Source of the DNA: an uncultured Oscillospiraceae bacterium
GTDB lineage: Bacteria > Bacillota > Clostridia > Oscillospirales > Ruminococcaceae
NCBI GenBank assembly: GCA_934446565.1
Contig: CAKSEO010000062.1
Coordinates: 1-13,448 of the forward strand
Reading direction: 5' to 3'
Length of the DNA: 13,448 nucleotides
Shown: positions 1,183 to 13,326 of the stretch, one piece after another
Layout of the letters: each line of letters opens with the position of its first letter
Position numbering within the stretch: the stretch's first letter is position 1
Notes under the pieces: model-generated
Databases searched by the model: none
What the model saw: the letters and a program-made list of their open reading frames with translations, nothing else
Told to the model about the DNA's origin: nothing
Program-made: the position numbers and the translations under genes

Positions 1183-1227
1183 GGAATATAGGTGATTTGC
1201 ATTGCAATCAAAATTTTGGAGGTAAAT

Positions 1228-3150
1228 ATGAGAAAAGGTACAAAAAGGCTGCTGTCCGGAATATCGGCGGTGGTGATATCACTTTCCGCTGTGAATGCAG
1301 TGGACGTGATTACGGCGGTTTCCGCGTTTGCAGAGGGTGGCATTGCTATCAATGAAGCTAATTTCCCAGATGAGAATTTCAGAAAGTTCATTTCGAGAAA
1401 TATTGACCGTAATTGTGACAATGTTTTATCCGAAAGCGAGATTTCTTCTGTAACAGACTTGAGTGTTAGTCATTACAACATTCAGAGTTTAGATGGTATT
1501 GAATACTTTACATCGCTCACTTATTTGGGCTGCGAAAGCAATCAGTTGACTTCATTTGACGTCAGCAAGAACACTGCGCTCGAATATTTATATTGCTACG
1601 ATAATCAGTTAATTTCACTTGATGTCAGCAAGAACACTGCGCTCAAATATTTAAAATGCTACAATAATCAGTTGGCTTCACTTGATGTCAGTAAGAACAC
1701 TGCGCTCGGCTGGTTATATTGTTACAATAATCAGTTGACATCACTCGATGTCAGCAAGAACATTTCGCTCAACTTTTTAAACTGCGACAGCAATCGGTTG
1801 ACATCACTTGATGTCAGCAAGAACACTGCGCTCACCTTTTTAAATTGCGGCAACAATCAGATGACGTCGCTTGATGTCAGCAAGAACACTGCGCTCGATC
1901 ATTTATATTGCTACAACAATCTGTTGACGTCACTTGATGTCGGCAAGAACACTGCGCTCGAATATTTATATTGCTATGGCAATGAGTTGACTTCACTTAA
2001 TGTCAGCAAGAACACTGTTCTCTATTGGTTATATTGCTACAATAATCAGTTGACGTCACTTGACGTCAGCAAGAACACTGCGCTCAAATTTTTACATTGC
2101 TACAATAATCAGTTGACGTCACTTGATTTCAGCAAGAACGCTGTGCTTACTGAGTTATCTTGCGAAGACAACGAATACATTCTTAAATCCAACAGCCTGA
2201 ACGAACTTACCGAATACGGCTTTGACGGCTCAAAGGCAAGCAACTGGCAGGGTGCAGAATATGACGCGGCAGAAAATTCTCTCAAAAATATCACAAGCGA
2301 TACCATTACATACAGCTATGATTTAGGAAATGGTAAGAGCGAAACATTCACCCTCAAGACCGGTAAGAGCAGCTCCGCCGAACCCACCAAGCCGGTAGTC
2401 ACCGCCGAGCCCACCTACGGCGGCGCCGAGATCACATGGAACTCCATCAAGGGCGCGACAAAGTACCGCATCCGCCGCAATACCGGCAGCGGCTGGGCGA
2501 CACTTGCAACGGTCAGCTCAACATCCTATACTGATACAGCGCCTGCTGTCGGCACTAACCAATATATCGTTATCCCATACATCAACGGAGAATTCAAAAC
2601 CGAATGCCAGTCAGAGATAGAAACAGTCACTATCAAGGCAGAAACTCCTGTTCTTACCGTAAAGGTGCAGGAAAACAAGGTCACAGTCACCTGGGATACC
2701 GTAAAGGGTGCGACAAAGTACCGCATCCGCCGCAACGACGGCAAGGGCTGGACAACTCTCCAGACAAGCACAAAGACAAGCTATGTCGATAACAATGCAG
2801 AAGCAGGAAAGCGTTATACATATGTCGTATATCCGTTCTTCGGGACCACCGCTGGCTCACCCTCCGCAACTGTAAAGGTGGCATTGGTGGGAAAAGCGGG
2901 TTCGGCTGCGGTATCTGCGGCGGATACCGGTAACGGAATCAAGATAAGCTGGGATAAGATCAGCGGCATAACACGTTACCGCGTCCGCCGAAACGATGGC
3001 ACAGGCTGGTATACTATGGCTTCCACCGCAAACCTCTCCTGGACTGACACAACAGCCAAAAGCGGTAATGCATATACTTATGTAGTTTATATCTTCACAA
3101 GCGGCAATACCTACGCAAACCCATCGTCAACTATTACCATCAAGCCCTAA
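1228..3150 (+). CDS. Secreted leucine-rich-repeat and Fn3-like surface protein
   Basis: This 640-residue exported protein probably binds carbohydrate, host or partner proteins at the cell surface. No enzymatic domain is seen. Residues 1-35 form a signal peptide (RKGTKR, hydrophobic core, cleavage likely after SAFA). Residues 42-72 hold a cap with an EF-hand-like loop (D60, N62, D64, V66, S68, E71). Ten tandem 21-residue LRRs cover 95-304 with a partial eleventh after them. Three fibronectin-III-like modules follow at roughly 387-467, 472-556 and 556-640, each with a K(Y)RIRR-type strand. There is no LPXTG motif, dockerin or membrane anchor, so it is either released or held non-covalently. The ATG at 1228 is chosen over an in-frame GTG at 1192 because GGAGG (1218-1222) lies 5 bases upstream. 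It has its own promoter and hairpin, so it is not part of the glycan operon. Confidence 0.85.
   Translation: MRKGTKRLLSGISAVVISLSAVNAVDVITAVSAFAEGGIAINEANFPDENFRKFISRNIDRNCDNVLSESEISSVTDLSVSHYNIQSLDGIEYFTSLTYLGCESNQLTSFDVSKNTALEYLYCYDNQLISLDVSKNTALKYLKCYNNQLASLDVSKNTALGWLYCYNNQLTSLDVSKNISLNFLNCDSNRLTSLDVSKNTALTFLNCGNNQMTSLDVSKNTALDHLYCYNNLLTSLDVGKNTALEYLYCYGNELTSLNVSKNTVLYWLYCYNNQLTSLDVSKNTALKFLHCYNNQLTSLDFSKNAVLTELSCEDNEYILKSNSLNELTEYGFDGSKASNWQGAEYDAAENSLKNITSDTITYSYDLGNGKSETFTLKTGKSSSAEPTKPVVTAEPTYGGAEITWNSIKGATKYRIRRNTGSGWATLATVSSTSYTDTAPAVGTNQYIVIPYINGEFKTECQSEIETVTIKAETPVLTVKVQENKVTVTWDTVKGATKYRIRRNDGKGWTTLQTSTKTSYVDNNAEAGKRYTYVVYPFFGTTAGSPSATVKVALVGKAGSAAVSAADTGNGIKISWDKISGITRYRVRRNDGTGWYTMASTANLSWTDTTAKSGNAYTYVVYIFTSGNTYANPSSTITIKP
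1510..2139 (+). repeat. Ten tandem 63-bp units encoding 21-residue LRRs
   Basis: Each unit encodes a variant of TALxxLxCYNNQ followed by LTSLDVSKN. A cysteine occupies the same place in every unit, and in the partial eleventh. The pattern matches the published 21-residue IRREKO class of bacterial LRRs (LxxLxC form). The DNA is also strongly conserved, for example GTCAGCAAGAACACTGCGCT recurs in most units, so the array could expand or contract by slippage or recombination. Bases that vary cluster in the LxxL-x-C segment. Confidence 0.9.
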
Positions 3151-3330: not shown

Positions 3331-4341
3331 GTGGAAGTACTGGCGATAGTTCCAGCAAGAAGCGGCTCGAAATCAGTCGTTGACAAAAACATCCGCCCGA
3401 TAAACGGCAAGCCTATGCTCGCATATTCTATTGAGCATGCAAAGGCTTCAAAATATATCAACCGTGTGATACTCAGCACCGACAGCGAAAAGTATGCCGA
3501 GATCGGAAGAAGCTACGGCGCAGAGATCCCATTTATCCGTCCGGCGGAATACGCAACAGATACCGCGCTAGACATAGATGTTTTCCGCCACGCCCTGAAT
3601 TTCCTCAGAGAAAAAGAGGGATACGTCCCGGATATCGTAGTTCAGCTTCGCCCGACATACCCGATACGCCGTCCCGAGGATATCGACAAAATGGTCGAAA
3701 TGCTTATGGAATCGCCGGAAGCTGATTCCGTGCGCTGTATCGCTCCCGCCAAGGAGATCGCTTATAAAATGTGGCGCAAGTCCGATAACGGCAGGATAGT
3801 CCCGCTGCTCGACGATATCAGCGAGGCTTACAACATGCCGCGTCAGGCGCTTCCTAAGATATATTACCAGAACGCCTGCATTGACGTTGTAAGGGCTTCG
3901 GTCATCACAGAAAAGAACTCCATGAGCGGAGATGTCATACTTGGATACGAGATGGATCACAACTTTGACATCGACACTGAAAAGGACTTCGCAGACGCTG
4001 CGTTATACCTGAAGCTGAACCAGGCGCATGACAGCAAGTTCGTATTCGATATCGACGGCGTTATAGCTCAGTACCGTGAGAACCTCGACTATGCTTCGGC
4101 TGGTCCTAACGAAAGAATGATACGAGTTATCAACAAGCTTTACGACATGGGAAATCACATCGTCCTTTTCACTGCCCGCGGATTCGTGACTGGCATAGAC
4201 TGGCGCGAGGTCACGGAAAAGCAGATGAAGGACTGGGGCGTTAAATACCATGAGCTTAGATTCGGAAAGCCAGACGCGACTTTCTACATCGACGATAAAA
4301 TGCTGGATATGAACACATTGATGGACGCATTCGGCAAATAA
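3331..4341 (+). CDS. neuA: CMP-nonulosonate cytidylyltransferase fused to HAD phosphatase
   Basis: This 336-residue bifunctional protein has a first domain (1 to about 230) that resembles NeuA-type CMP-sialic acid synthetases, which transfer CMP from CTP to a nonulosonic acid. Visible motifs are VPARSGSKSVVDKNI (nucleotide loop), LSTDSEKYAEI, QLRPTYPIR and the metal pair D213/D215 (FDIDTEKDF). The second domain (about 236-336) is a compact, cap-less HAD phosphatase of the EcbF/BcbF capsule type. Its DxD nucleophile is D240/D242 (FDIDGVI), then LFTAR and finally GKPDATFYIDDK with the acidic pair. The fusion suggests dephosphorylation and activation of the same sugar acid, as in pathways that make a 9-phosphate intermediate. 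Free NeuA is usually about 220-230 residues, so the extra 100 are the HAD module. It is first in the operon and 35 bases before the NeuB gene. The exact sugar is unknown. Confidence 0.85.
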   Translation: MEVLAIVPARSGSKSVVDKNIRPINGKPMLAYSIEHAKASKYINRVILSTDSEKYAEIGRSYGAEIPFIRPAEYATDTALDIDVFRHALNFLREKEGYVPDIVVQLRPTYPIRRPEDIDKMVEMLMESPEADSVRCIAPAKEIAYKMWRKSDNGRIVPLLDDISEAYNMPRQALPKIYYQNACIDVVRASVITEKNSMSGDVILGYEMDHNFDIDTEKDFADAALYLKLNQAHDSKFVFDIDGVIAQYRENLDYASAGPNERMIRVINKLYDMGNHIVLFTARGFVTGIDWREVTEKQMKDWGVKYHELRFGKPDATFYIDDKMLDMNTLMDAFGK

Positions 4342-4376
4342 TACAACCAACAAACTGAAGAAAAAGAGGAAAGAAA

Positions 4377-5867
4377 ATGGATATTTTTGAAAACCTTATC
4401 ATCTTTGAAATGGCGAACAGCCATCAGGGCAGCGTGGAGCATGGACTTAAAATCATCAGCGAAATGGGAAAGATCGCGAGAAAGTACAACATAAAGGCGG
4501 CTGTAAAGCTTCAGTACCGTAATCTTGACACATTTATCCACCCTGCATATAAGGGAAGAACAGATGTCAAGCATATCCCGCGGTTCGAGAGCACAAGACT
4601 TTCCTACGATCAGTTCACCATCCTCGCTAATGCTATCAAGGACGAGGGAATGATCTCCATGAGCACTCCGTTCGATGAGACCGGCGTTGACTGGTGCGTT
4701 GCGCAGGGTCTGGACATCATAAAGGTCGCAAGCTGCTCCGCTATGGACTGGCCGCTTCTTGAGAAGGTCGCAGCTGCCGGAAAGCCCGTAATTATCTCTA
4801 CCGGCGGAAAGACCGTATCTGATATCGACAAGATCTACAATTTCTTTATACATCGTAATGTGCAGTTTGCATTCATGCACTGCATCGCAGAATACCCAGC
4901 CCCGATGGATCACATCCAGCTCGACTTCATGGAGAAGATGAAGAAGAGATACAGAGGTATCGACATCGGATATTCCGGACATGAGGATCCGGACGATAAT
5001 ATCGTCCCCATGCTCGCTGCCGCCAAGGGCGCAGTTCTTTTTGAGCGCCATGTTGGATATCCTACCGAGACCATCAAGCTCAACGCATATTCCATGAATC
5101 CCGATCAGGCGGATAAGTGGGTCGCTTCCATCCTCAAGGCGCAGGAGATCTGCCGCATGAAGAAGGAAAACGAAAAGTATATCAGCCAGGGCGAGCTCGA
5201 TTCCCTGCGCTCGCTGTGCAGAGGCGTTTTCGTCAAGAAGCCCGTCAAGGCAGGCGAGCCTATCACTGCGGATAATGTTTTCTTCGCAATGCCCTGCCAG
5301 GCAGACCAGATGACCAGCGGCGAATTCAAGGACGGTATCATCGCTACCCGCGATTATGCTGCAAACGACGCGGTTTATGAGATTGTAGCCATCAAGAACG
5401 TAAATATCGCAAGAAGCGTTATCCACGACGCAAAGGGTCTCCTCCTCGAAGCCGGGATAGCTCTCGGCGATAACTTCGAGGTCGAGCTTTCCCACCATTA
5501 TGGAATGGAGAAGTTCAGAGAGACAGGCGCCATCATTATCAGCCTTATCAACCGCGAATACTGCAAGAAGCTTATCATCGTTCTTCCCGGACAGAAGCAT
5601 CCTATGCATTATCACAAGGTCAAGGAGGAAACTTTCCAGCTCCTGTACGGAGACCTCCAGTGCAAGATCGACGGCGTTGAATACGATATGAAGCCCGGCG
5701 ATATCCAGACTGTAAAGAGAAACTCTCCGCACTCCTTTGAGTCAAAGCACGGCGCGATATTTGAGGAAGTATCTACTACTCATATCAAGGGCGATTCCTA
5801 TTATGAGGATCCCAACATTGCCAAGCTCGATCTCATTGAGAGAAAGACTGTTGTCGAAAATTGGTAA
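4377..5867 (+). CDS. neuB: NeuB-type nonulosonate synthase with SAF and C-terminal cupin
   Basis: This 496-residue protein probably condenses phosphoenolpyruvate with a hexose or hexosamine derivative to a nine-carbon 2-keto acid. Residues 1 to about 265 form the TIM-barrel synthase (FEMANSHQG, KLQYRN, STPFDETGVDW, IISTGG, GYSGHEDP). H202 and H225 match the metal-binding histidines of NeuB. An SAF (antifreeze-like) domain at about 278-340 starts SLCRGVFVKKPVKAGEPIT. A cupin at about 345-496 carries the metal site H411-x-H413, E417/E418 and H452 (HPMHYHKVKEE, NSPHSF), and resembles lyxose-isomerase-like cupins. The usual NeuB length is about 340-350, so the cupin is an addition. The segment after H225 (VGYPTETIKLNAYSMNP) lacks the DHxASLEP-like motif of Neu5Ac synthases, hinting at another substrate. 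The ATG follows GAGGA (4366-4370). Confidence 0.85.
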   Translation: MDIFENLIIFEMANSHQGSVEHGLKIISEMGKIARKYNIKAAVKLQYRNLDTFIHPAYKGRTDVKHIPRFESTRLSYDQFTILANAIKDEGMISMSTPFDETGVDWCVAQGLDIIKVASCSAMDWPLLEKVAAAGKPVIISTGGKTVSDIDKIYNFFIHRNVQFAFMHCIAEYPAPMDHIQLDFMEKMKKRYRGIDIGYSGHEDPDDNIVPMLAAAKGAVLFERHVGYPTETIKLNAYSMNPDQADKWVASILKAQEICRMKKENEKYISQGELDSLRSLCRGVFVKKPVKAGEPITADNVFFAMPCQADQMTSGEFKDGIIATRDYAANDAVYEIVAIKNVNIARSVIHDAKGLLLEAGIALGDNFEVELSHHYGMEKFRETGAIIISLINREYCKKLIIVLPGQKHPMHYHKVKEETFQLLYGDLQCKIDGVEYDMKPGDIQTVKRNSPHSFESKHGAIFEEVSTTHIKGDSYYEDPNIAKLDLIERKTVVENW

Positions 5868-5964: not shown

Positions 5965-7056
5965 ATGATTTTATTCAGAGCTACCTCGCATCATCAGCTT
6001 ATAAATGCTATTGCTATAAAACTCCAGTATTGCCGAGATGAACAGGCAGACCTCATGCTGTCTAATCACACTGATTTTTCCAATATACTTGACAATATCC
6101 GCAGCTGCGGGATATTCAGAAATGTTTACTATGTTGATGATGTCAAGGTTTCGTCCGAGTTCCTTGCGCTGTCTCCGGACCAGAGACTTGAAGCAAGCAA
6201 GCATATCACCAATATGTGGGACGTTGAACCGGACTGTGAATACAGCGACTACTATTACGGACACAACATTCTTGCCAACAAGTTTTACTATTACTACCTT
6301 GTCGGAAAGCAGGGAAGCGTTATACCGCATTCTTTCCAGGAGGGTACCAGTTCTTATCTTGCAGACCCATGGGCTGAATTACAAAAGGGACCGATAGCGC
6401 ATGGGTGCTACGGTGAAAATTCTCTACTGAATAAGCTGGCGGATCTTTACATGTACCTGCCGGATCAGCTCCTTTACACCTCTCCGGTGGAGGTAAAGCC
6501 GATAGATATCAGCACTGATGAGCTACGCAGCATCGTGAAGCAGATATATCAGCCGCCGGCACTTCCGAAGCAGAAATACATATACATAGCGGTCTGCTCT
6601 GAATTCCATAAGCTCTCGTCAAACGAATCTGCCCTCGTTGAATACATCGGCGACCTTGTCGGCAAGGATAACCTTGTTATAAAGAATCATCCGCGCAGCA
6701 GCATCGACAAATTCAGCTATCGCGGCTTCAGCGTTATGGACAGCTCTATCGCGTTCGAGGCTTATCTTATGGACCCTGCGATAAAGGATAAGATTCTCAT
6801 CGCGCCTCTTTCGACTGCGCTCATGTCGGCAGAATTCATGCTGGACGACTTCCGGGCGATCATCTGCAAGGAGCTGCTTGCCTGCGACCATTCAAGATTT
6901 GTTCCCAAGGGCTCTATGAACGTGTTCCTCAAGAATATGACAGAATCCGCCGTGAACAGCGATGGCTCACCGAGCTTTTACTATGCGAAGAATAAGCAGC
7001 ATTTCAGCGATATAATCACATATCTTCGGGGAAAGGAAAAAATGAATGCAAACTAA
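5965..7056 (+). CDS. GT52-like (sialyltransferase-family) glycosyltransferase
   Basis: This 363-residue protein probably transfers the CMP-activated nonulosonic acid made by the two preceding gene products onto a growing glycan in the cytoplasm. The N-terminus LFRATSHHQLINAIAIKLQY resembles the opening strand and helix of bacterial GT52/polysialyltransferase-type GT-B enzymes. Q125-E126-G127 (SFQEGTSSY) fits the acidic (D/E)-(D/E)-G motif. H242-P243 (VIKNHPRS) fits the CMP-binding HP motif. S283-T284 (IAPLSTALM) fits the late serine/threonine motif. There is no signal peptide or membrane segment. A ribosome site before ATG 5965 is weak (TAGG, 5950-5953). The gene overlaps the next one by 11 bases, so the two are probably translated together. 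Assignment to GT52 rather than a neighbouring family is by motif pattern only. Confidence 0.65.
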   Translation: MILFRATSHHQLINAIAIKLQYCRDEQADLMLSNHTDFSNILDNIRSCGIFRNVYYVDDVKVSSEFLALSPDQRLEASKHITNMWDVEPDCEYSDYYYGHNILANKFYYYYLVGKQGSVIPHSFQEGTSSYLADPWAELQKGPIAHGCYGENSLLNKLADLYMYLPDQLLYTSPVEVKPIDISTDELRSIVKQIYQPPALPKQKYIYIAVCSEFHKLSSNESALVEYIGDLVGKDNLVIKNHPRSSIDKFSYRGFSVMDSSIAFEAYLMDPAIKDKILIAPLSTALMSAEFMLDDFRAIICKELLACDHSRFVPKGSMNVFLKNMTESAVNSDGSPSFYYAKNKQHFSDIITYLRGKEKMNAN

Positions 7057-8818
7057 AGAACCTATGATATCCATAATCATCCCCGTATATAATGCTGCCC
7101 AAACGCTGGATCAGTGCGTGGATGCCCTTGTTTATCAGACATATGAGAATATCGAGATACTTATCATGGAGAAAAAATCGACGGATAACTCGCTTGAGAT
7201 AGCCCGTCGGTTCGAGAAGGAATTCCCCGGGAAAGTAAGAGCAATAGAGCTTCCATATACTGAAAACCCCGCACGCGCTATAAATGAGGGCGTGAAAGCG
7301 GCGAAAGGCGATTATGTCTGCTTTAACGACCCTGATGATTATTTCAACCTCGACGCAATGGAGAGCATCGCGAAAAAGATCATGCGTGATCCGTTCGAGA
7401 TGGCTTTCTTTGACGCAAACTTAGTTGACGCCGCCGGTTCGGTGATCCGCGCGTCACATATCGCTCAGCCGTTCTGCAAGAAGAATCTGCTGACCAATAT
7501 GGACCTCATGACCTACTGGCGCACCTGCATTAAACGCGACTTTTTCCTTTCGCATGACCCGGTCATCGAAACATGTAAATATGCGGATCTCACCTGGATA
7601 CCGCTTTTCATTGCAGACGCGAGAAAGATAGAATATATTCCGGAAAGGCTGTACAACTATCTTGCAAACAACGGCTTCACTGCCGCGAATAAAATAAGCA
7701 ACGCCTCCAGCCTTGAAATACTTCAGGGATTCGATCATCTGCTTGAAAAAGCGGACAAGATGTTCTATGATGAGATCGTCATGTTCATAATTACCCGCTT
7801 TGTGCCGATGGCTAAGAACTGGAATCACCATACCTATTTCATGGCGTGGGCTCAGAAGTATAAGGATGTATTTCTGGAAAACAAGTACCTCAAAGAGCGC
7901 CAGGGTTATCGCGATTATCTTGAAAAGGCGTTCGATACGTATGTGGAGGATCATATTCCGTATACGGCCTATATTGATGGATTCTCCTGTTCAGACGATA
8001 TGGAACAGTACAGGGAATACGTGCAGGGTAAGGCGTTCATCAAGGGCGAGGGCGACGTTGTGGCGCTTGACGAAAGCACCTGCGACCTTTCTCAGCTCCC
8101 TCACGCGCAGGAAGCGCTGGACAGCGGAAATACGGAGTATCTTTCTCACTTCTTCGCGCTGAAGAATATATACGAGAACGGCGGCTGCTTTGTCGGAAAG
8201 GATATCAGGTTCACTGCGCAGCTGGATTCCTCCTGCATTTATGACAGCTTTTTTGCGTTCAAAACCGATGAGAGCTTCAATGACCAGATATTTGGCGGAC
8301 ATGCCGGCTCTGAATTTATCAAGCAGCTGCTTGACACTTATCTGACTCCGGATTTCTTTGACGACCCGTTCCTGCCGTTTGCTGACCGTCTCAGGATCAT
8401 AGCAGGCGTAACGCTATCGAAGCTCAAAGTCAACGGACGCGATTCGCTGGTCGATGACAAAATACGATTCTATTCAGTTGAGAAAATGACTTTGGGAGCC
8501 GGTCTGCCGGAGGAGATATGCTATGTTGATTTCTCTTGTCTGGTTTCCGACTCCGATTCCAGAAAGGATATGCTGATAGTTCCGATTGATGTTTTCAATT
8601 CGGCTGAGCTTTCGGTTTCTTCGACCGGAAATTCTCAGAAGCTGAACGACCAGATAAGGGCGCTCAAAAATAGAATCAGCCAGATAGAGGGATCAGATTC
8701 CTATAAGTTCGCAAAACGTCTGAGCCGGTTTGGCAATACTAAATTCGGCACTCCGTTCAAGCGAGTGTTCAAGTGGTTTCTGAAAAAGTACAGGAAAAGA
8801 AAGTACGGCATGGGTTGA
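7046..8818 (+). CDS. GT2 glycosyltransferase with degenerate GT32-like second domain
   Basis: This 590-residue protein has an N-terminal GT-A domain of family 2 (about 7-230): ISIIIPVYNAAQTLDQCVDAL, then the DxD region N94-D95-P96-D97-D98. The usual DDGSTD motif reads E42-K43-K44-S45-T46-D47. A second domain at about 325-470 matches the pattern of GT32 (SDxxR..LYxxGGIYLDxDV), but as S367-H368 and GGCFVGKDI (379-387). The first DxD aspartate and the SD aspartate are therefore lost. A matching later segment, FFAFKTDESFNDQIFGGHAG, supports the relationship. Residues about 530-550 look like a short coiled coil, and the C-terminus is very basic (FKWFLKKYRKRKYG), which could hold it at the membrane. 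The donor and acceptor are unknown. GGGGAAAGG (7028-7036) is a good ribosome site, and the start lies inside the previous gene. Confidence 0.75.
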   Translation: MQTKEPMISIIIPVYNAAQTLDQCVDALVYQTYENIEILIMEKKSTDNSLEIARRFEKEFPGKVRAIELPYTENPARAINEGVKAAKGDYVCFNDPDDYFNLDAMESIAKKIMRDPFEMAFFDANLVDAAGSVIRASHIAQPFCKKNLLTNMDLMTYWRTCIKRDFFLSHDPVIETCKYADLTWIPLFIADARKIEYIPERLYNYLANNGFTAANKISNASSLEILQGFDHLLEKADKMFYDEIVMFIITRFVPMAKNWNHHTYFMAWAQKYKDVFLENKYLKERQGYRDYLEKAFDTYVEDHIPYTAYIDGFSCSDDMEQYREYVQGKAFIKGEGDVVALDESTCDLSQLPHAQEALDSGNTEYLSHFFALKNIYENGGCFVGKDIRFTAQLDSSCIYDSFFAFKTDESFNDQIFGGHAGSEFIKQLLDTYLTPDFFDDPFLPFADRLRIIAGVTLSKLKVNGRDSLVDDKIRFYSVEKMTLGAGLPEEICYVDFSCLVSDSDSRKDMLIVPIDVFNSAELSVSSTGNSQKLNDQIRALKNRISQIEGSDSYKFAKRLSRFGNTKFGTPFKRVFKWFLKKYRKRKYGMG

Positions 8819-8839: not shown

Positions 8840-9625
8840 ATGAAAACAGTTATTCTTGCAGGCGGCTTTGGTACGCGCATTTCCGAGGAGAGTCAGTTCA
8901 AGCCTAAGCCTATGGTGGACCTTGGCGGTATGCCTATTCTTCTGCATATCATGAAGCTTTACAGTGCGTACGGGCACAATGAATTCATAATCTGCGCCGG
9001 CTATAAGCAGCATGTAATAAAGGAATACTTCGCTGATTATTTTCTGCATACGTCAGACGTGACTTTCGATTTCACGAACGGAAAGAACGAGATGACTGTT
9101 CATCAGAATCATTCCGAGCGCTGGAAAGTCACCGTTGTCGATACAGGTCTCCACACTATGACCGGCGGCAGGGTAAAGCGCGTGCGCGACTATATCGGGA
9201 ACGAGCCGTTCATGCTGACCTACGGTGACGGCGTTTCTGACGTGAATATCTCAGAGCTGCTCAAGTTTCACAGATCACACGGCAAGATGGTCACCATGTC
9301 CGCTTACAATGCGGGGCAGCGCTTTGGCGTGCTCGACATCGCGCCTAACGGTCAGATAAAGGAGTTCCGCGAAAAGACCGCCGGCGACGGAAATATGATA
9401 AATATCGGATTCATGGTGTGCCAGCCTGAATTCATAGATTATATCGACGGCGACGATACCGTGCTGGAAAAGGCTCCTCTTGAGACCGCCGCAAAGCTTG
9501 ATCAGCTCATGGCGTACAAGCATGAGGGCTTCTGGCAGTGCATGGATACCGTCCGCGAGAAAGAACAGCTCGAAAAGATGTGGGCATCTGGGAATGCTCC
9601 GTGGAAAGTGTGGTCTGAAAAATGA
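8840..9625 (+). CDS. rfbF: Glucose-1-phosphate cytidylyltransferase
   Basis: This 261-residue enzyme makes CDP-glucose from CTP and glucose-1-phosphate, the first step toward CDP-linked deoxysugars. The nucleotidyltransferase signature AGGFGTR (7-13) is followed by KPKPMVDLGGMPIL, and later by TYGDGVSDV, RFGVLDI, EKAPLE and GFWQCMDTVREKEQLE. All are characteristic of the RfbF/DdhA family rather than of UDP- or dTDP-glucose enzymes. Length agrees with the usual 257 or so. AGGGGAG (8828-8834) lies 5 bases before the ATG. It begins 21 bases after the preceding glycosyltransferase and overlaps rfbG by four bases, so a coupled rfbF-rfbG pair is clear. Confidence 0.93.
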   Translation: MKTVILAGGFGTRISEESQFKPKPMVDLGGMPILLHIMKLYSAYGHNEFIICAGYKQHVIKEYFADYFLHTSDVTFDFTNGKNEMTVHQNHSERWKVTVVDTGLHTMTGGRVKRVRDYIGNEPFMLTYGDGVSDVNISELLKFHRSHGKMVTMSAYNAGQRFGVLDIAPNGQIKEFREKTAGDGNMINIGFMVCQPEFIDYIDGDDTVLEKAPLETAAKLDQLMAYKHEGFWQCMDTVREKEQLEKMWASGNAPWKVWSEK

Positions 9626-10683
9626 ATGCTCTGAAGATTTACGAGGGAAAAACCGTGCTGGTCACCGGACATACCGGATTCAAGGGAAGCTGGATGTGCA
9701 AGGTGCTTGAATTGCTGGGCGCCAGAGTTGTGGGATACGCCCTGGAAGCGCCTACTCAGCCAAGCCTGTTTGAAAAGTCGGGCATAGGCGGCAGCATTAC
9801 CAGCGTCATCGGCGACATCCGCGACCTGAAAAAGCTCAATGAGACGATGCAGCTTTATAAGCCGGAGATCGTGATACACATGGCGGCGCAGCCCATCGTG
9901 CGCGAAAGCTATGCCGACCCGGTTTATACCTACGAGACTAACGTAATGGGCACTGTGAATATATGCGAAGCCGTACGCCTGTGCGACAGCGTAAAGAGCT
10001 TTGTAAACGTCACCACCGACAAGGTGTACAAGAATAACGAATGGGAATGGGGATACCGCGAGAACGACGCGCTTGACGGCTACGATCCTTACAGCAATTC
10101 CAAGTCCTGCTCGGAGCTGGTCACATCGTCATATATCAAGTCGTTTCTGAAAGCAAAGGGGATAGCCGTATCCACCTGCCGTGCGGGTAACGTTATCGGC
10201 GGAGGAGATTTCGCAAAGGACAGGATAATCCCGGACTGCGTTCGTGCGATGGAAAAGGGCGAGGAAATAATCGTTCGAAATCCCTATTCGACGCGTCCCT
10301 ATCAGCATGTGCTGGAACCGGTCGTTACCTACCTTATGCTTGCAGCTATGCAGTACAGCAGACCGGAGCTTGCCGGAAACTACAACGTAGGACCCGACGA
10401 CTGCGACTGTGTGAATACCGGCGATCTTGTTGACATTTTCTGCGAGAAGTGGGGAGACGGTGCGTCATGGAAAAACGTAAGCGAAGCGAATGCTCCGCAT
10501 GAAGCCAATTTTCTCAAGCTTGACTGCTCGCGTATCAAATCCGTTCTCGGCTGGAGACCGCGCTGGCATATAGGAGACGCGATAGATAAGACCGTCGAGT
10601 GGAGCAAGGCGTATCTCGCCGGCGAGGACATCAATGCGGTGATGGAAAAACAGATACTTGAATATCTGGAGGATAGAAAATGA
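9622..10683 (+). CDS. rfbG: CDP-glucose 4,6-dehydratase
   Basis: This 353-residue extended short-chain dehydrogenase converts CDP-glucose to CDP-4-keto-6-deoxyglucose. It shows the NAD-binding loop GHTGFKG (16-22), HMAAQPIVRESYADP, TTDKVY (131-136) and the catalytic Y157-x-x-x-K161 (PYSNSK). The C-terminal TRPYQHVLEP and NVGPDD segments are typical of RfbG/DdhB. Length is close to the usual 355-360. It shares ATGA with both neighbours (rfbF stop, next start), so translation is likely coupled, and no strong ribosome site precedes it. No 3-dehydrase (RfbH type) or its reductase partner is in the window, so a 3,6-dideoxy sugar is not predicted from these genes alone. Confidence 0.93.
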   Translation: MNALKIYEGKTVLVTGHTGFKGSWMCKVLELLGARVVGYALEAPTQPSLFEKSGIGGSITSVIGDIRDLKKLNETMQLYKPEIVIHMAAQPIVRESYADPVYTYETNVMGTVNICEAVRLCDSVKSFVNVTTDKVYKNNEWEWGYRENDALDGYDPYSNSKSCSELVTSSYIKSFLKAKGIAVSTCRAGNVIGGGDFAKDRIIPDCVRAMEKGEEIIVRNPYSTRPYQHVLEPVVTYLMLAAMQYSRPELAGNYNVGPDDCDCVNTGDLVDIFCEKWGDGASWKNVSEANAPHEANFLKLDCSRIKSVLGWRPRWHIGDAIDKTVEWSKAYLAGEDINAVMEKQILEYLEDRK

Positions 10684-11588
10684 AAAAAGCACTTGTGACC
10701 GGGGCGAATGGGTTCCTGGGCTCGCTTCTGACGGCGGAACTACTCAAGAATGGAGTAGAAGTGATCGCAGCCGATATGGATGGCTGCAACAGCAGGATCC
10801 CGGACGGCGCCAGGTTTGCCGCATTTGATATGAGCGTACCATCCTCTCTGGCAAACGCTGTCAGCGACAGGGATATCGACGTTATTTACCACATGGCGTG
10901 GGCAGGTTCATCCGGACCTCAGCGCGCGGATCATGCCCTCCAGCTCAGGAATGCCCAGTATACCTGCGATATGGTCAATGCGGCGGCACAGATGGGAATA
11001 AAGCGCTTTGTCGGCGCCGGGACGCTTGCTCAGTTCGACTGCCAGGCGTATATCCCTGAAAACGGTTCAACTCCCAATGCAGTAAGCTGCTACGGCACGG
11101 CTAAAATCGCGGCGCAGTACATGAGCAAGGCTGTCGCAAATGCGGCAAAGGTAGAGCACGTCTGGTGCATTATTTCCAATACATACGGCGTTGGCAACAC
11201 AACGATGAACTTTGTCAACATGGCGTCAAAAAAGATGCTGTCCGGGGAGCGTGCAGCGTTCACTGCCGGAGAGCAGAATTACGATTTCGTGTATATCACT
11301 GATACTATCCGCGGGTTATATCTCTGCGGAAAAAATGGTAAGCCTAACTGCTCGTACTATCTTGGCAGCGGCAAAGCGCGCAAATTAAAGGATTATATCA
11401 CAGCCATCCGTGATACTATCGACCCGAAAATACCGCTGTATCTTGGGGAGATACCGTTTAACGGACAGTCGCTTCCTATTGAAAAATTCAGCATTGACGC
11501 AGCTGAGACCGACGCCGGATATCAGCCGCAGGTGGACTTTGCAGACGGCATACACCTGACTATTGACTGGCTTAAGGAGCAGAAATGA
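10680..11588 (+). CDS. NAD(P)-dependent SDR, probable CDP-4-keto-6-deoxyhexose reductase/epimerase
   Basis: This 302-residue extended SDR has a Rossmann loop TGANGFLG (about 7-14), the strand YHMAWAGSSGP, and the catalytic pair Y138-x-x-x-K142 (CYGTAKIAAQ). The phrases GIKRFVGAGT and FVYITDTIRGLYL are typical of sugar-nucleotide epimerases and reductases. Its place between rfbG and an RmlC-like gene, with ATGA overlaps on both sides, suggests it reduces the 4-keto group of the RfbG product, before or after 3,5-epimerisation. A pure 4-epimerase role cannot be excluded from sequence alone. The end product is not identifiable. Confidence 0.75.
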   Translation: MKKALVTGANGFLGSLLTAELLKNGVEVIAADMDGCNSRIPDGARFAAFDMSVPSSLANAVSDRDIDVIYHMAWAGSSGPQRADHALQLRNAQYTCDMVNAAAQMGIKRFVGAGTLAQFDCQAYIPENGSTPNAVSCYGTAKIAAQYMSKAVANAAKVEHVWCIISNTYGVGNTTMNFVNMASKKMLSGERAAFTAGEQNYDFVYITDTIRGLYLCGKNGKPNCSYYLGSGKARKLKDYITAIRDTIDPKIPLYLGEIPFNGQSLPIEKFSIDAAETDAGYQPQVDFADGIHLTIDWLKEQK

Positions 11589-12160
11589 TACAGAAATTTG
11601 AATTCCACGAAACAGAAATCCCTGGACTTATAGAGGTCACTCCGTTCAATGCGGACGATATCCGCGGCTGCTTCACAAAGGATTATTCCAAGGAAGTGTT
11701 TGAGGCGAACGGGATAAAGCACGACCTCGCAGAGGTGTTCTATACCACAAGCTATAAGGGCGTTATACGCGCTCTCCACTTCCAGCGGGAGAAGCAGCAG
11801 CCTAAGCTTGTTCGCTGCATTCATGGGCATGTATATGACGTGGTCGTCGACCTGCGAAAGGACAGCCCTACGTTCAGGAAGTGGCTTGCGTTCGACCTTA
11901 TCGGGGAAAAGCACAACGAAATACTTGTGCCCGCTGGCTGCGCTCACGGCTATCTCGTACTTGAGGACAGCATCGTATCGTATAAGTGCGCTGAAAAATT
12001 CTACGGAGAATTTGACGACGGCATCATGTGGAACGATCCGGATATCGCAGTTGACTGGGGTCTTGACAGAGTTGGCGGACTTGACAAGGTGATCCTTGCC
12101 GATAAGGATAAGAATCTTCAGTCCTTTGCTGAATTCATGAGCAAATATGGTGGATTCTGA
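11585..12160 (+). CDS. RmlC/RfbC-like 4-keto-6-deoxyhexose 3,5-epimerase
   Basis: This 191-residue cupin-fold protein belongs to the dTDP-4-dehydrorhamnose 3,5-epimerase family, whose members are usually 180-190 residues. Family marks are GCFTKDY (28-34), GVIRALHFQ with the likely catalytic H65, KLVRCIHGHVYDVVVDLR, LVPAGCAHGYLVLED and the tyrosines Y133 and Y140. IMWNDPDIAVDW is the usual C-terminal signature. The classical substrate is dTDP-linked, but no dTDP-glucose genes are present here and it sits in a CDP-sugar run, so it probably acts on the CDP-4-keto-6-deoxy sugar. AAGGAG (11574-11579) lies 5 bases before the ATG. It overlaps the preceding gene by four bases and the next by one. Confidence 0.85.
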   Translation: MIQKFEFHETEIPGLIEVTPFNADDIRGCFTKDYSKEVFEANGIKHDLAEVFYTTSYKGVIRALHFQREKQQPKLVRCIHGHVYDVVVDLRKDSPTFRKWLAFDLIGEKHNEILVPAGCAHGYLVLEDSIVSYKCAEKFYGEFDDGIMWNDPDIAVDWGLDRVGGLDKVILADKDKNLQSFAEFMSKYGGF

Positions 12161-13326
12161 TGAAAAATTTCAATTATGACGCGCTGGTCGTTGGCTGCGG
12201 TCTGTCTGGAGGAGTTATAGCACGCTTCCTTGCAGAGGAGCTTGGCAAAAACGTACTTGTCATCGACCGCAGAGATCACCGCTCGGGCAATATGTATGAT
12301 TACCGCGATGAGAACGGATTCCTTGTTCAGCAGTATGGTCCGCATTGTTTCCACACGACGAAAAAGGAACTGTTTGATTACATGTGCCGCTATTCCGAAT
12401 GGGACAGGTACGAAGTGACATGCATGGCGCAGATAGACGGAAAATTCACGCCATCTCCGTTCAACTTCCAGACCATTGACGACCTGTATCCTCCTCAGGA
12501 AGCCGAAAAACTCAAAGAGCGTATACGCAGCGTGTACGGAAATGCTGACAAGGCAACGATCGTGGAACTCCTGAACTGCCCGGACGACATGATACGTCAG
12601 TATGCGGAGCTGCTGTTTGAAAAGGACTACAGCCTTTATACGGCGAAGCAGTGGGGCATTTCTCCGTCAGAAATAGACGTCAGTGTTTTGAAGCGCGTTC
12701 CTGTTCTTTTCTCATATAAATTCGGATACTTTGATGATGAATATCAGTATCTTCCGAGAAACGGATTTTCCGCCTTTTTTGACCGGCTGCTGGATCACCC
12801 ACGGATCAGCGTCAAGCTTGATACTCCGGCAGAGAGCATTATGAGCATAAGGGACGGTCAGGTGTTTATCAACGATGAGAAAGCGGATGTCCCGGTGATC
12901 TACACCGGCGCGATAGATGAGCTGCTCGGCTGCCGTTATGGCAGGCTTCCATATCGCTCGCTTCGTTTTGATATGCGCACTGAAAATACCGACAGCTATC
13001 AGGACGCGCCGCTTGTGGCTTACCCCCAGGCGGAGGGCTTTACTAGGATCACGGAATACACGAAGCTTCCTGTTCAGCCCACCAACGGAAAAACCAAAAT
13101 AGCAGTCGAATATCCCATTACATATGACCCCGATAATGGAACGGAGCCTTACTACCCGATACTCACTGACAACAGCGCCAGACTGTATGAACAGTATTTA
13201 AAGGACGCCTCAATGATATCCGGTCTATACCTGTGCGGAAGGCTCGCAAACTTCAAGTATTACAATATGGATCAGGCTTTGGAAAACGCCCTGTCCATGT
13301 GTGAAAGACTCCGCCGGGAGCTTTGA
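12160..13326 (+). CDS. glf: UDP-galactopyranose mutase
   Basis: This 388-residue flavoenzyme interconverts UDP-galactopyranose and UDP-galactofuranose, the donor for galactofuranose residues. It has an N-terminal FAD-binding GCGLSG (12-17), then RDHRSGNMYDY, QQYGPHCFHT and YTAKQWG. Late motifs EYTKL, EYPITYDPDNGTEPYYPI and GRLANFKYYNMDQALENAL fit the family closely. Length agrees with bacterial Glf (about 367-390). The start codon shares its A with the TGA stop of the epimerase (TGATG). It is the last gene of the run, followed after about 20 bases by a strong hairpin. No galactofuranosyltransferase is visible in the window. Confidence 0.95.
   Translation: MKNFNYDALVVGCGLSGGVIARFLAEELGKNVLVIDRRDHRSGNMYDYRDENGFLVQQYGPHCFHTTKKELFDYMCRYSEWDRYEVTCMAQIDGKFTPSPFNFQTIDDLYPPQEAEKLKERIRSVYGNADKATIVELLNCPDDMIRQYAELLFEKDYSLYTAKQWGISPSEIDVSVLKRVPVLFSYKFGYFDDEYQYLPRNGFSAFFDRLLDHPRISVKLDTPAESIMSIRDGQVFINDEKADVPVIYTGAIDELLGCRYGRLPYRSLRFDMRTENTDSYQDAPLVAYPQAEGFTRITEYTKLPVQPTNGKTKIAVEYPITYDPDNGTEPYYPILTDNSARLYEQYLKDASMISGLYLCGRLANFKYYNMDQALENALSMCERLRREL

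Follow-up and report, generated by a model that had tools for sequence, protein, structure and literature searches.

Two fusion proteins of an uncultured Oscillospiraceae bacterium may form a nitrogen-free, KDN-like ulosonate pathway

Two adjacent genes on contig CAKSEO010000062.1 of an uncultured Oscillospiraceae bacterium, within the 13,448-nucleotide stretch analyzed here (the window), encode fusion proteins whose reading as a two-protein pathway for a nitrogen-free ulosonate is well supported. Protein 1 joins a NeuA-type cytidine monophosphate (CMP)-ulosonate synthetase to a haloacid dehalogenase (HAD) phosphatase, and protein 2 joins a NeuB-type synthase, through an antifreeze-like (SAF) region, to a cupin. 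The product would be a CMP-activated 3-deoxy-2-ulosonate, most likely CMP-ketodeoxynonulosonic acid (CMP-KDN) or a stereoisomer of it. We consider a deaminated acid probable, and a phosphorylated NeuB substrate somewhat favored; the chances that the acid has nine carbons and is KDN are evenly balanced, and KDN is our best guess rather than a result. The complete conversion of a ketose phosphate into a CMP-KDN-like acid by these two polypeptides, as read from their sequences, could equally go either way.

KDN occurs as a polymer in the teichulosonic acid of Streptomyces. The KDN pathway of Bacteroides thetaiotaomicron includes a KDN-9-phosphate synthase, BT1714, and a phosphatase (PMC6200933). 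The phosphatase is BT1713, and BT1715 also belongs to the pathway.

Results

The open reading frames (ORFs) of the two proteins are separated by 35 bases, and GGAGG lies upstream of the GTG start of the first (Table 1). The original prediction had described a NeuA fused to a HAD phosphatase with all its motifs and a NeuB fused to a cupin, and its positions, domains and motifs proved exact against the ORF list, profile scans and alignments. In protein 1, a PF02348 match (84.9 bits against a cut-off of 22.6), which makes the N-terminal domain a member of that family, is followed by the full HAD set of DID, T, K and DD. In protein 2, a PF03102 match (149.5 bits, cut-off 22.1) establishes membership of the NeuB family and is followed by a Cupin_2 match (E 3.1e-10) with a complete HxH...E...H site. 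Relatives at E <= 0.001 number at least 6,034 for protein 2 and 3,339 for protein 1, other NeuB and NeuA types included. The best 120 of each all share at least 66% identity, and their alignments span 89-100% (protein 2) and 96-100% (protein 1) of the query; because they align over nearly the full length, the two architectures are, by this comparison, not due to chance. The NeuA domain is NeuA-like rather than KdsB-like: among the NCBIfam models PseF (TIGR03584) scored best, at 127.5 bits (below its cut-off of 205.7), with KdsB-type models at 53.3 bits or less, and its matches in the PDB include 6ifd and 9ftb, a CMP-Neu synthetase and a NeuA.

The NeuB domain retains its metal and phosphoenolpyruvate (PEP) residues. 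E11, K44, H202 and H225, which correspond to E25, K53, H215 and H236 of the Neisseria meningitidis enzyme (NmeNeuB), are the same in 16 of 16 other NeuB-cupins. In NmeNeuB, the SAF residue Arg314 is thought to position the N-acetyl group of N-acetylmannosamine (ManNAc; PMC6795526). We fixed this position by aligning protein 2 with 1xuu and with two mutant structures, 4ipi (R314A) and 4ipj (R314K), and found that Met305 takes its place in protein 2, which therefore lacks the Arg of synthases for N-acetylneuraminic acid (Neu5Ac), pseudaminic acid (Pse) and legionaminic acid (Leg). In an alignment of 52 rows, the Arg is lost from all 17 sampled NeuB-cupins, window included, the other 16 also carrying Met. 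The site holds Phe in the solved structure 3g8r and in one of ten divergent rows, Ile in the other nine, and Ser in four KDN-type proxies, defined as NeuBs adjoining, or one ORF from, an above-cut-off match to the KDN-9-phosphate phosphatase model NF058599. Arg was found in the meningococcal and SpsE references and in 12 of 14 other NeuBs, the remaining two showing gaps (two row pairs are identical), and no residue aligned there in four short Bacteroidota NeuBs.

A maximum-likelihood tree, in which SpsE and NmeNeuB form long branches, split the NeuB-cupins, together with the divergent group and 3g8r, from the KDN-type, short and other NeuBs at a branch with 100/100 support. The four KDN-type proxies form a clade of their own, and judged by them the window NeuB falls outside the clade of Bacteroides-type KDN-9-phosphate synthases. 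By alignment and tree, then, it is like the KDN-type enzymes in having lost the N-acetyl contact but does not belong to their clade. Its closest solved relative is 3g8r (324 bits; 47% of aligned positions identical), and it missed the curated equivalog scores for NeuB_NnaB (146.8 against 399.65 bits) and PseI (127.9 against 340.25). Residues specific to the clade are H55 (28/28 rows), R69 (27/28) and N236; H55 and R69 are candidate phosphate-binding residues. Bacteroidota often carry a short NeuB of some 290 residues, which in five of the eight loci fetched (L177-L184) lies beside a KdsC-type HAD. The HAD of L177 scored 138.9 bits against a KDN-9-phosphate phosphatase cut-off of 180, and the HAD of L180 has BT1713 (3e81) as its best PDB match.

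We then checked amino-sugar markers in the window and in the genomes of relatives. As originally noted, no window gene exceeded a curated cut-off for NeuC, Leg or Pse functions (NCBIfam models), the nearest LegB matches being the cytidine diphosphate (CDP)-glucose dehydratase at 79.5 bits and a short-chain dehydrogenase/reductase (SDR) at 57.7 bits against a cut-off of 475. Searching the genomes of 19 relatives for NeuB, NeuC, PseB and LegB, we found nine above the cut-off for at least one of the last three, each with a second, ordinary NeuB. The nine genomes in which the NeuB-cupin is the only strong NeuB had none of these markers above the cut-off, that is, 0/9 against 9/10 of the others (p 1.2e-4, a guide only, since the genomes are related to one another and come without completeness figures). 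As counterpoints, weaker SDR matches to PseB and LegB occur in all 19 genomes, two NeuB-cupin-only genomes (G015 and G017) encode LegB-like proteins whose scores, 430 and 434 bits, come close to the cut-off without reaching it, and NeuC-model matches of 42-110 bits (cut-off 235.9) were found in six of the nine NeuB-cupin-only genomes. The proposed genome search for neuC, leg and pse was made in these relatives, and it supports the claim that no amino-sugar pathway is needed. A close NeuA is present in 18 of the 19 genomes, fused to HAD in 15; in three (G003, G009 and G012) the NeuB locus lacks NeuA and the NeuA-HAD fusion lies elsewhere in the genome.

The cupin domain corresponds in profile, fold and HxH..E..H motif to D-lyxose isomerases and other cupin sugar isomerases. 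Lyx_isomer (PF07385) scored 23.3 bits against a cut-off of 20.8, and H411-x-H413...E418...H452 is invariant in 16 of 16 sequences, window included; quercetin dioxygenases also match the core cupin motif. An AlphaFold2 model (pLDDT 90.5) had as its first structural matches the D-lyxose isomerases of Bacillus and Thermofilum, the latter solved with fructose and mannose, and next a sugar isomerase of E. coli, the phosphomannose isomerases of Thermococcus and L-ribose isomerases. In the profile alignment, the metal ligands and a C-terminal Glu line up with their counterparts in 2y0o. Together these matches are good evidence for an aldose-ketose isomerase.

The motifs of the HAD domain (DxD, T, K, DD) are likewise invariant in 16 of 16 aligned sequences from several phyla, window included. 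Its sequence matched 9iqw (E 2.7e-12) and 1xpj (E 0.0019), and 9iqw, the D-arabinose 1,5-diphosphate phosphatase AfhF of a phage, was also the top Foldseek match of its AlphaFold2 model, a less certain model than that of the cupin (pLDDT 79). The EcbF-BcbF model TIGR01689 gave 20.7 bits, well short of the 162 required. NF058599 and TIGR01670 gave no match to the domain at E <= 0.05, and BT1713 (3e81), itself KdsC-like, was absent from the sequence matches up to E 10; Foldseek listed 3e81 at rank 22 (E 6e-3, TM-score 0.43), a general fold match. Comparing both models with characterized isomerases and with KDN-9-phosphate phosphatase, as had been suggested, therefore favored the expectation for the cupin, close to D-lyxose/D-mannose isomerases, but not for the HAD, whose nearest characterized relative is AfhF.

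For gene context, we kept the best 80 of 290 relatives from a one-genome-per-species scan with a narrow peptide pattern; some of these loci end at contig ends. Most belong to Lachnospiraceae. NeuBs with the cupin attached, at 55-59% identity, were also found in Chloroflexota, Verrucomicrobiota, one Deltaproteobacterium, one Alphaproteobacterium, Peribacteria and Xanthocytophaga (Bacteroidota). NeuA matches occur in 57 of the 80 loci and HAD matches in 38, each directly downstream of a NeuA match. Plasmids gave 87 tblastn records, and in none did the match reach 80% of the query length; among those listed (40), identity was 24-29% over 59-67% of the query.

The HAD also lies near NeuB-cupins that have no NeuA, in two settings. 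It is fused to an SDR in the Pseudomonadota loci L137, L141 and L143 (a HAD match also occurs in L145), and it is a separate gene in contigs whose viral status rests on their source collection. We covered 22 of 33 viral loci (L205-L226), the other 11 (L227-L237) being partial matches at 23-32%. A HAD match was present in 13 of the 22 (some loci are duplicates), and in eight it lies within one gene of the NeuB-cupin: directly upstream in L207, L209 and L210, and one gene away in L208, L213, L214, L217 and L221. Because the HAD is conserved, near the NeuB-cupin and in places SDR-fused, a phosphorylated intermediate is suggested; its placing indicates that the product of a NeuB carries a phosphate, if not in every case the product of the NeuB-cupin. 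Six viral loci (L205, L206, L218, L224, L225 and L226) carry a second NeuB-like ORF of 25-28% identity besides the NeuB-cupin, adjoined by the HAD in five.

The divergent branch has different partners. In a sample of 398 Pseudomonadota genomes, a NeuB of this clade was found in 13 (centre G013 included), 12 of them with the cupin, and one ORF cluster adjoins NeuB in seven of 12 fetched stretches. The two members of this cluster that were scanned (L143 and L146) are thiamine-diphosphate enzymes. That of L143 matched 8rph, which we take to be the YerE-like JanthE, at 403 bits, a much better score than the 265 bits of acetolactate synthases, and the same locus holds CDP-glucose and RfbH genes. 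Thiamine-enzyme matches occur in 11 of the 22 viral loci as well. YerE-like enzymes join keto acids, in one case a hydroxylated one, to CDP-4-keto-3,6-dideoxyglucose (PMC12247030). This suggests that the divergent NeuB-cupins may make the donor acid for a YerE-like ligase, which would splice it into branched sugars; the substrate chain length may therefore vary within the NeuB-cupin clade. In all, divergent NeuB-cupins (that of L146 cupin-less) stand beside or near a thiamine-diphosphate enzyme in L137, L141-L146, L207-L215, L217 and L221, often with a HAD and in some cases with CDP-sugar genes.

Potential users of the activated acid differ between the window and its relatives. With one representative of each ORF cluster typed, MptE/Maf-like clusters were found in 47 of 81 loci (the 80 relatives plus the window) and the flagellin cluster in 39. 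One locus (L017:3803-6130) encodes a 776-residue protein with Maf N-terminal, MptE-like and NeuA domains, by its domains a flagellin transferase fused to a CMP-sugar synthetase. The Maf of Clostridium botulinum accepts Neu5Ac and 3-deoxy-octulosonic acid (Kdo) (PMC11339370). Neither Maf nor flagellin genes were found among the ten window proteins scanned, and the window does not class as a Maf island.

Downstream of protein 2 lies a probable glycosyltransferase with distant similarity to PF07388 polysialyltransferases, a possible user of the CMP-sugar. It had 10 matches, one of them 99% and near-identical to the window's own, and P0250 (30% identity) carries PF07388; only nine other members of this family were found. 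The genes that follow form a surface polysaccharide cluster with above-cut-off matches to TIGR02623 (377 bits), TIGR02622 (446 bits), TIGR01221 (171 bits) and TIGR00031 (368 bits). They probably provide a CDP-6-deoxyhexose, plus galactofuranose from Glf; RfbH was not seen among the scanned window proteins. At the other end, a 306-residue ORF on the minus strand (89-1009) resembles an insertion sequence transposase or integrase, judged by its letters alone.

Table 1 Features of the window, with the evidence for each
Feature	Position	Strand	Evidence and remarks
Leucine-rich-repeat protein	1192-3150		internalin-like repeats, weak Fn3 matches; plus strand, upstream of NeuA-HAD
NeuA-HAD ORF (protein 1)	3331-4341	+	GTG start, 336 aa
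NeuA domain (CMP-ulosonate synthetase), residues 1-228	3331..4014	+	PF02348 (CTP_transf_3) E 9e-24
HAD phosphatase domain, EcbF/AfhF kind, residues 229-336	4015..4338	+	DID240, T281, K313, DD321
NeuB-SAF-cupin ORF (protein 2)	4377-5867	+	496 aa
NeuB TIM-barrel domain, ~residues 1-275	4377..5201	+	PF03102 E 1.4e-43; E11, H16, K44, H202, H225 kept
SAF (antifreeze-like) region	5202..5375	+	PF08666 16.1 bits, under cut-off 21; Met305 at NmeNeuB Arg314 place
Cupin domain, D-lyxose/D-mannose isomerase-like	5376..5864	+	metal site H411, H413, E418, H452; putative base E464
Probable glycosyltransferase, distantly PF07388 polysialyltransferase-like	5965..7056	+	PF07388 E 0.0012, 18.9 bits against 23.3
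Glycosyltransferase family 2 (GT2), long C-terminal part	7046..8818	+	PF00535 E 2.6e-29
CDP-glucose genes rfbF, rfbG, SDR, RmlC-like epimerase, Glf (surface polysaccharide cluster)	8840..13326	+	profile matches

Discussion

We propose that the cupin of protein 2 would isomerize fructose-6-phosphate to mannose-6-phosphate, as its fold and metal site suggest, and that NeuB-SAF would then condense the aldose phosphate with PEP to a KDN-9-phosphate-like acid by the chemistry of its family. Because of Met305 and the genome content, this step should not require an N-acetyl group. The HAD of protein 1, with its intact motifs, phosphatase relatives and co-occurrence, would strip the terminal phosphate, and NeuA would couple the acid to CMP, as its family does. 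Glycosyltransferases such as the polysialyltransferase-like protein in the window, or Maf in many relatives, may use the product. KDN, mannose-6-phosphate as the substrate and the order of steps are what we infer, and in several respects a pentose phosphate giving an octulosonate would be almost as good a fit.

A number of observations weigh against this scheme. Since the NeuB-cupin clade is separate from the KDN-type NeuBs, the making of KDN would have to be convergent, and site Asp247 is Asn in 27 of 28 clade rows, whereas all 24 rows from other clades have Asp, so sugar contacts also differ from those of KDN-type enzymes. The HAD is of the EcbF/AfhF kind rather than the KDN-9-phosphate phosphatase (KdsC/BT1713) type, and AfhF, its best relative, acts on a pentose. 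HAD matches are missing from 42 of the 80 loci (23 of which also lack a NeuA match), from nine of the 22 viral loci and from the cupin-less NeuB locus L146, and in five of the 22 (L205, L206, L218, L225 and L226) the HAD adjoins the second NeuB-like ORF instead of the NeuB-cupin. Three of the 19 genomes (G001, G004 and G011) have no HAD part and a fourth (G016) has only a distant match, 30% across residues 3-284 and interrupted by a stop; the HAD is therefore not obligatory. As for the cupin, the names of its relatives refer to lyxose and not only to mannose, and a class I mannose-6-phosphate isomerase (ManA) is above the cut-off in 11 of the 19 genomes, so a dedicated enzyme is not needed everywhere. 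Of the eight genomes without class I ManA above the cut-off, seven also lack PF20511; five have PF01050 above the cut-off, the exceptions being G001, G004 and G018, and a sub-threshold PF01050 match in G004 falls inside the NeuB-cupin frame itself. We gave the absence of class I ManA no weight as support for a cupin supplying mannose-6-phosphate, as completeness is not given and mannose may not be used.

The alternative that survives best, though we consider it unlikely, is an eight-carbon route in which the cupin turns D-xylulose-5-phosphate into D-lyxose-5-phosphate (or produces a different pentose phosphate), NeuB condenses this to an octulosonate 8-phosphate, the HAD dephosphorylates it and NeuA activates a Kdo-like acid. 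D-lyxose and D-mannose have the same configuration at C2-C4, the nearest relatives of the cupin are D-lyxose isomerases, the nearest characterized relative of the HAD is a D-arabinose 1,5-diphosphate phosphatase, and C. botulinum Maf can use Kdo; the preference of the NeuA domain for PseF over KdsB-type models, and cytidylyltransferase and transferase partners of the nine-carbon kind, speak against it. Slightly less probable is a route through free sugars, with the cupin interconverting fructose and mannose, NeuB taking free mannose as NmeNeuB takes ManNAc, and the HAD having another role or clearing phosphorylated side products. The complexes with free fructose and mannose among the closest cupin structures would agree with it, as would the 19 of 57 NeuA-bearing loci and three genomes without a HAD match, but a HAD with all its motifs recurs in several phyla and stands close to the NeuB-cupin in eight viral loci, or fused to an SDR in three of Pseudomonadota. 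We rate lower still a cupin that acts after NeuB, for instance by opening or epimerizing the ulosonate ring in the style of KdgF. Least of all do we expect an ordinary amino nonulosonate pathway (Neu5Ac, Leg or Pse) with its first genes elsewhere in the genome: although nine relatives carry markers, G015 and G017 have LegB-like SDRs and no second NeuB, and for this organism the window is what was covered, all nine marker-bearing genomes have their own ordinary NeuB, nine NeuB-cupin genomes have no marker above the cut-off, and the Arg is lost in every NeuB-cupin sampled.

The deaminated pathway preferred here resembles that of Bacteroides in combining a NeuB-type synthase, a HAD phosphatase and a CMP-transferase without NeuC, Leg or Pse, and in having no Arg at the 314 position (the four proxies standing in for BT1714). 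It differs in NeuB clade (against the proxies) and HAD kind, and adds the fused cupin and the NeuA-HAD fusion. The original pathway reading is supported in part: no amino-sugar pathway is needed, the Arg is missing, the cupin is isomerase-like, and the HAD has its motifs intact and lies near NeuB-cupins in some loci that lack NeuA. Homology to the Bacteroides KDN pathway is not supported, given the separate clade and the EcbF/AfhF-like HAD. The same-clade protein 3g8r, labelled SpsE, from Chromobacterium violaceum, was crystallized as a chain of 350 residues without cupin; we know of no functional test of it. The D-lyxose/D-mannose isomerases (2y0o, 7nzo-7nzq) and Thermococcus cupin phosphomannose isomerases (7zvm, 7zvy) share the fold, metal ligands and C-terminal part with the window cupin, but they are stand-alone enzymes at 23-29% identity, and the activity of the cupin is a predicted one. 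The systems closest to the HAD are AfhF (phage HY126, 9iqw), its best match in sequence and fold, and EcbF/BcbF; AfhF stands alone and takes a pentose bisphosphate. Mammalian CMAS has the same order of NeuA and HAD, but with a KdsC-kind HAD (3ewi, which we take to be this tail, is among the KdsC relatives). In the open literature, with most subscription journals outside it, we found neither a NeuB-cupin fusion nor a laboratory test of this widespread enzyme branch, and no mention of AfhF in the papers listed for it; the one listed paper to name a cupin domain deals with a Xanthomonas tssM transcriptome, and the terms Kdn, cupin and NeuB are absent from the main text of a study on Clostridium flagellar nonulosonates (PMC13317340).

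Tentatively, NeuB, cupin and HAD may form a general module that makes nitrogen-free 3-deoxy-ulosonates directly from central ketose phosphates, its isomerase and synthase sharing one chain, and ending either in NeuA, for the CMP-sugars of flagellin and polysaccharides, or in a YerE-like ligase, for the CDP-linked branched sugars of Pseudomonadota and viruses. The link to YerE-like ligases would then suggest a source for the polyhydroxy donor acids of branched bacterial sugars. If the proposed pathway is true, the annotation "N-acetylneuraminate synthase family" is misleading for the NeuB-cupin branch, and two proteins would offer a route to CMP-KDN usable for synthesis, needing only fructose-6-phosphate, PEP and cytidine triphosphate. 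A deep branch of the sialic acid synthase family, present in many gut bacteria and near flagellin genes, would make KDN-like acids, and one could predict which gut commensals bear deaminated sialic acids on their flagella or capsules.

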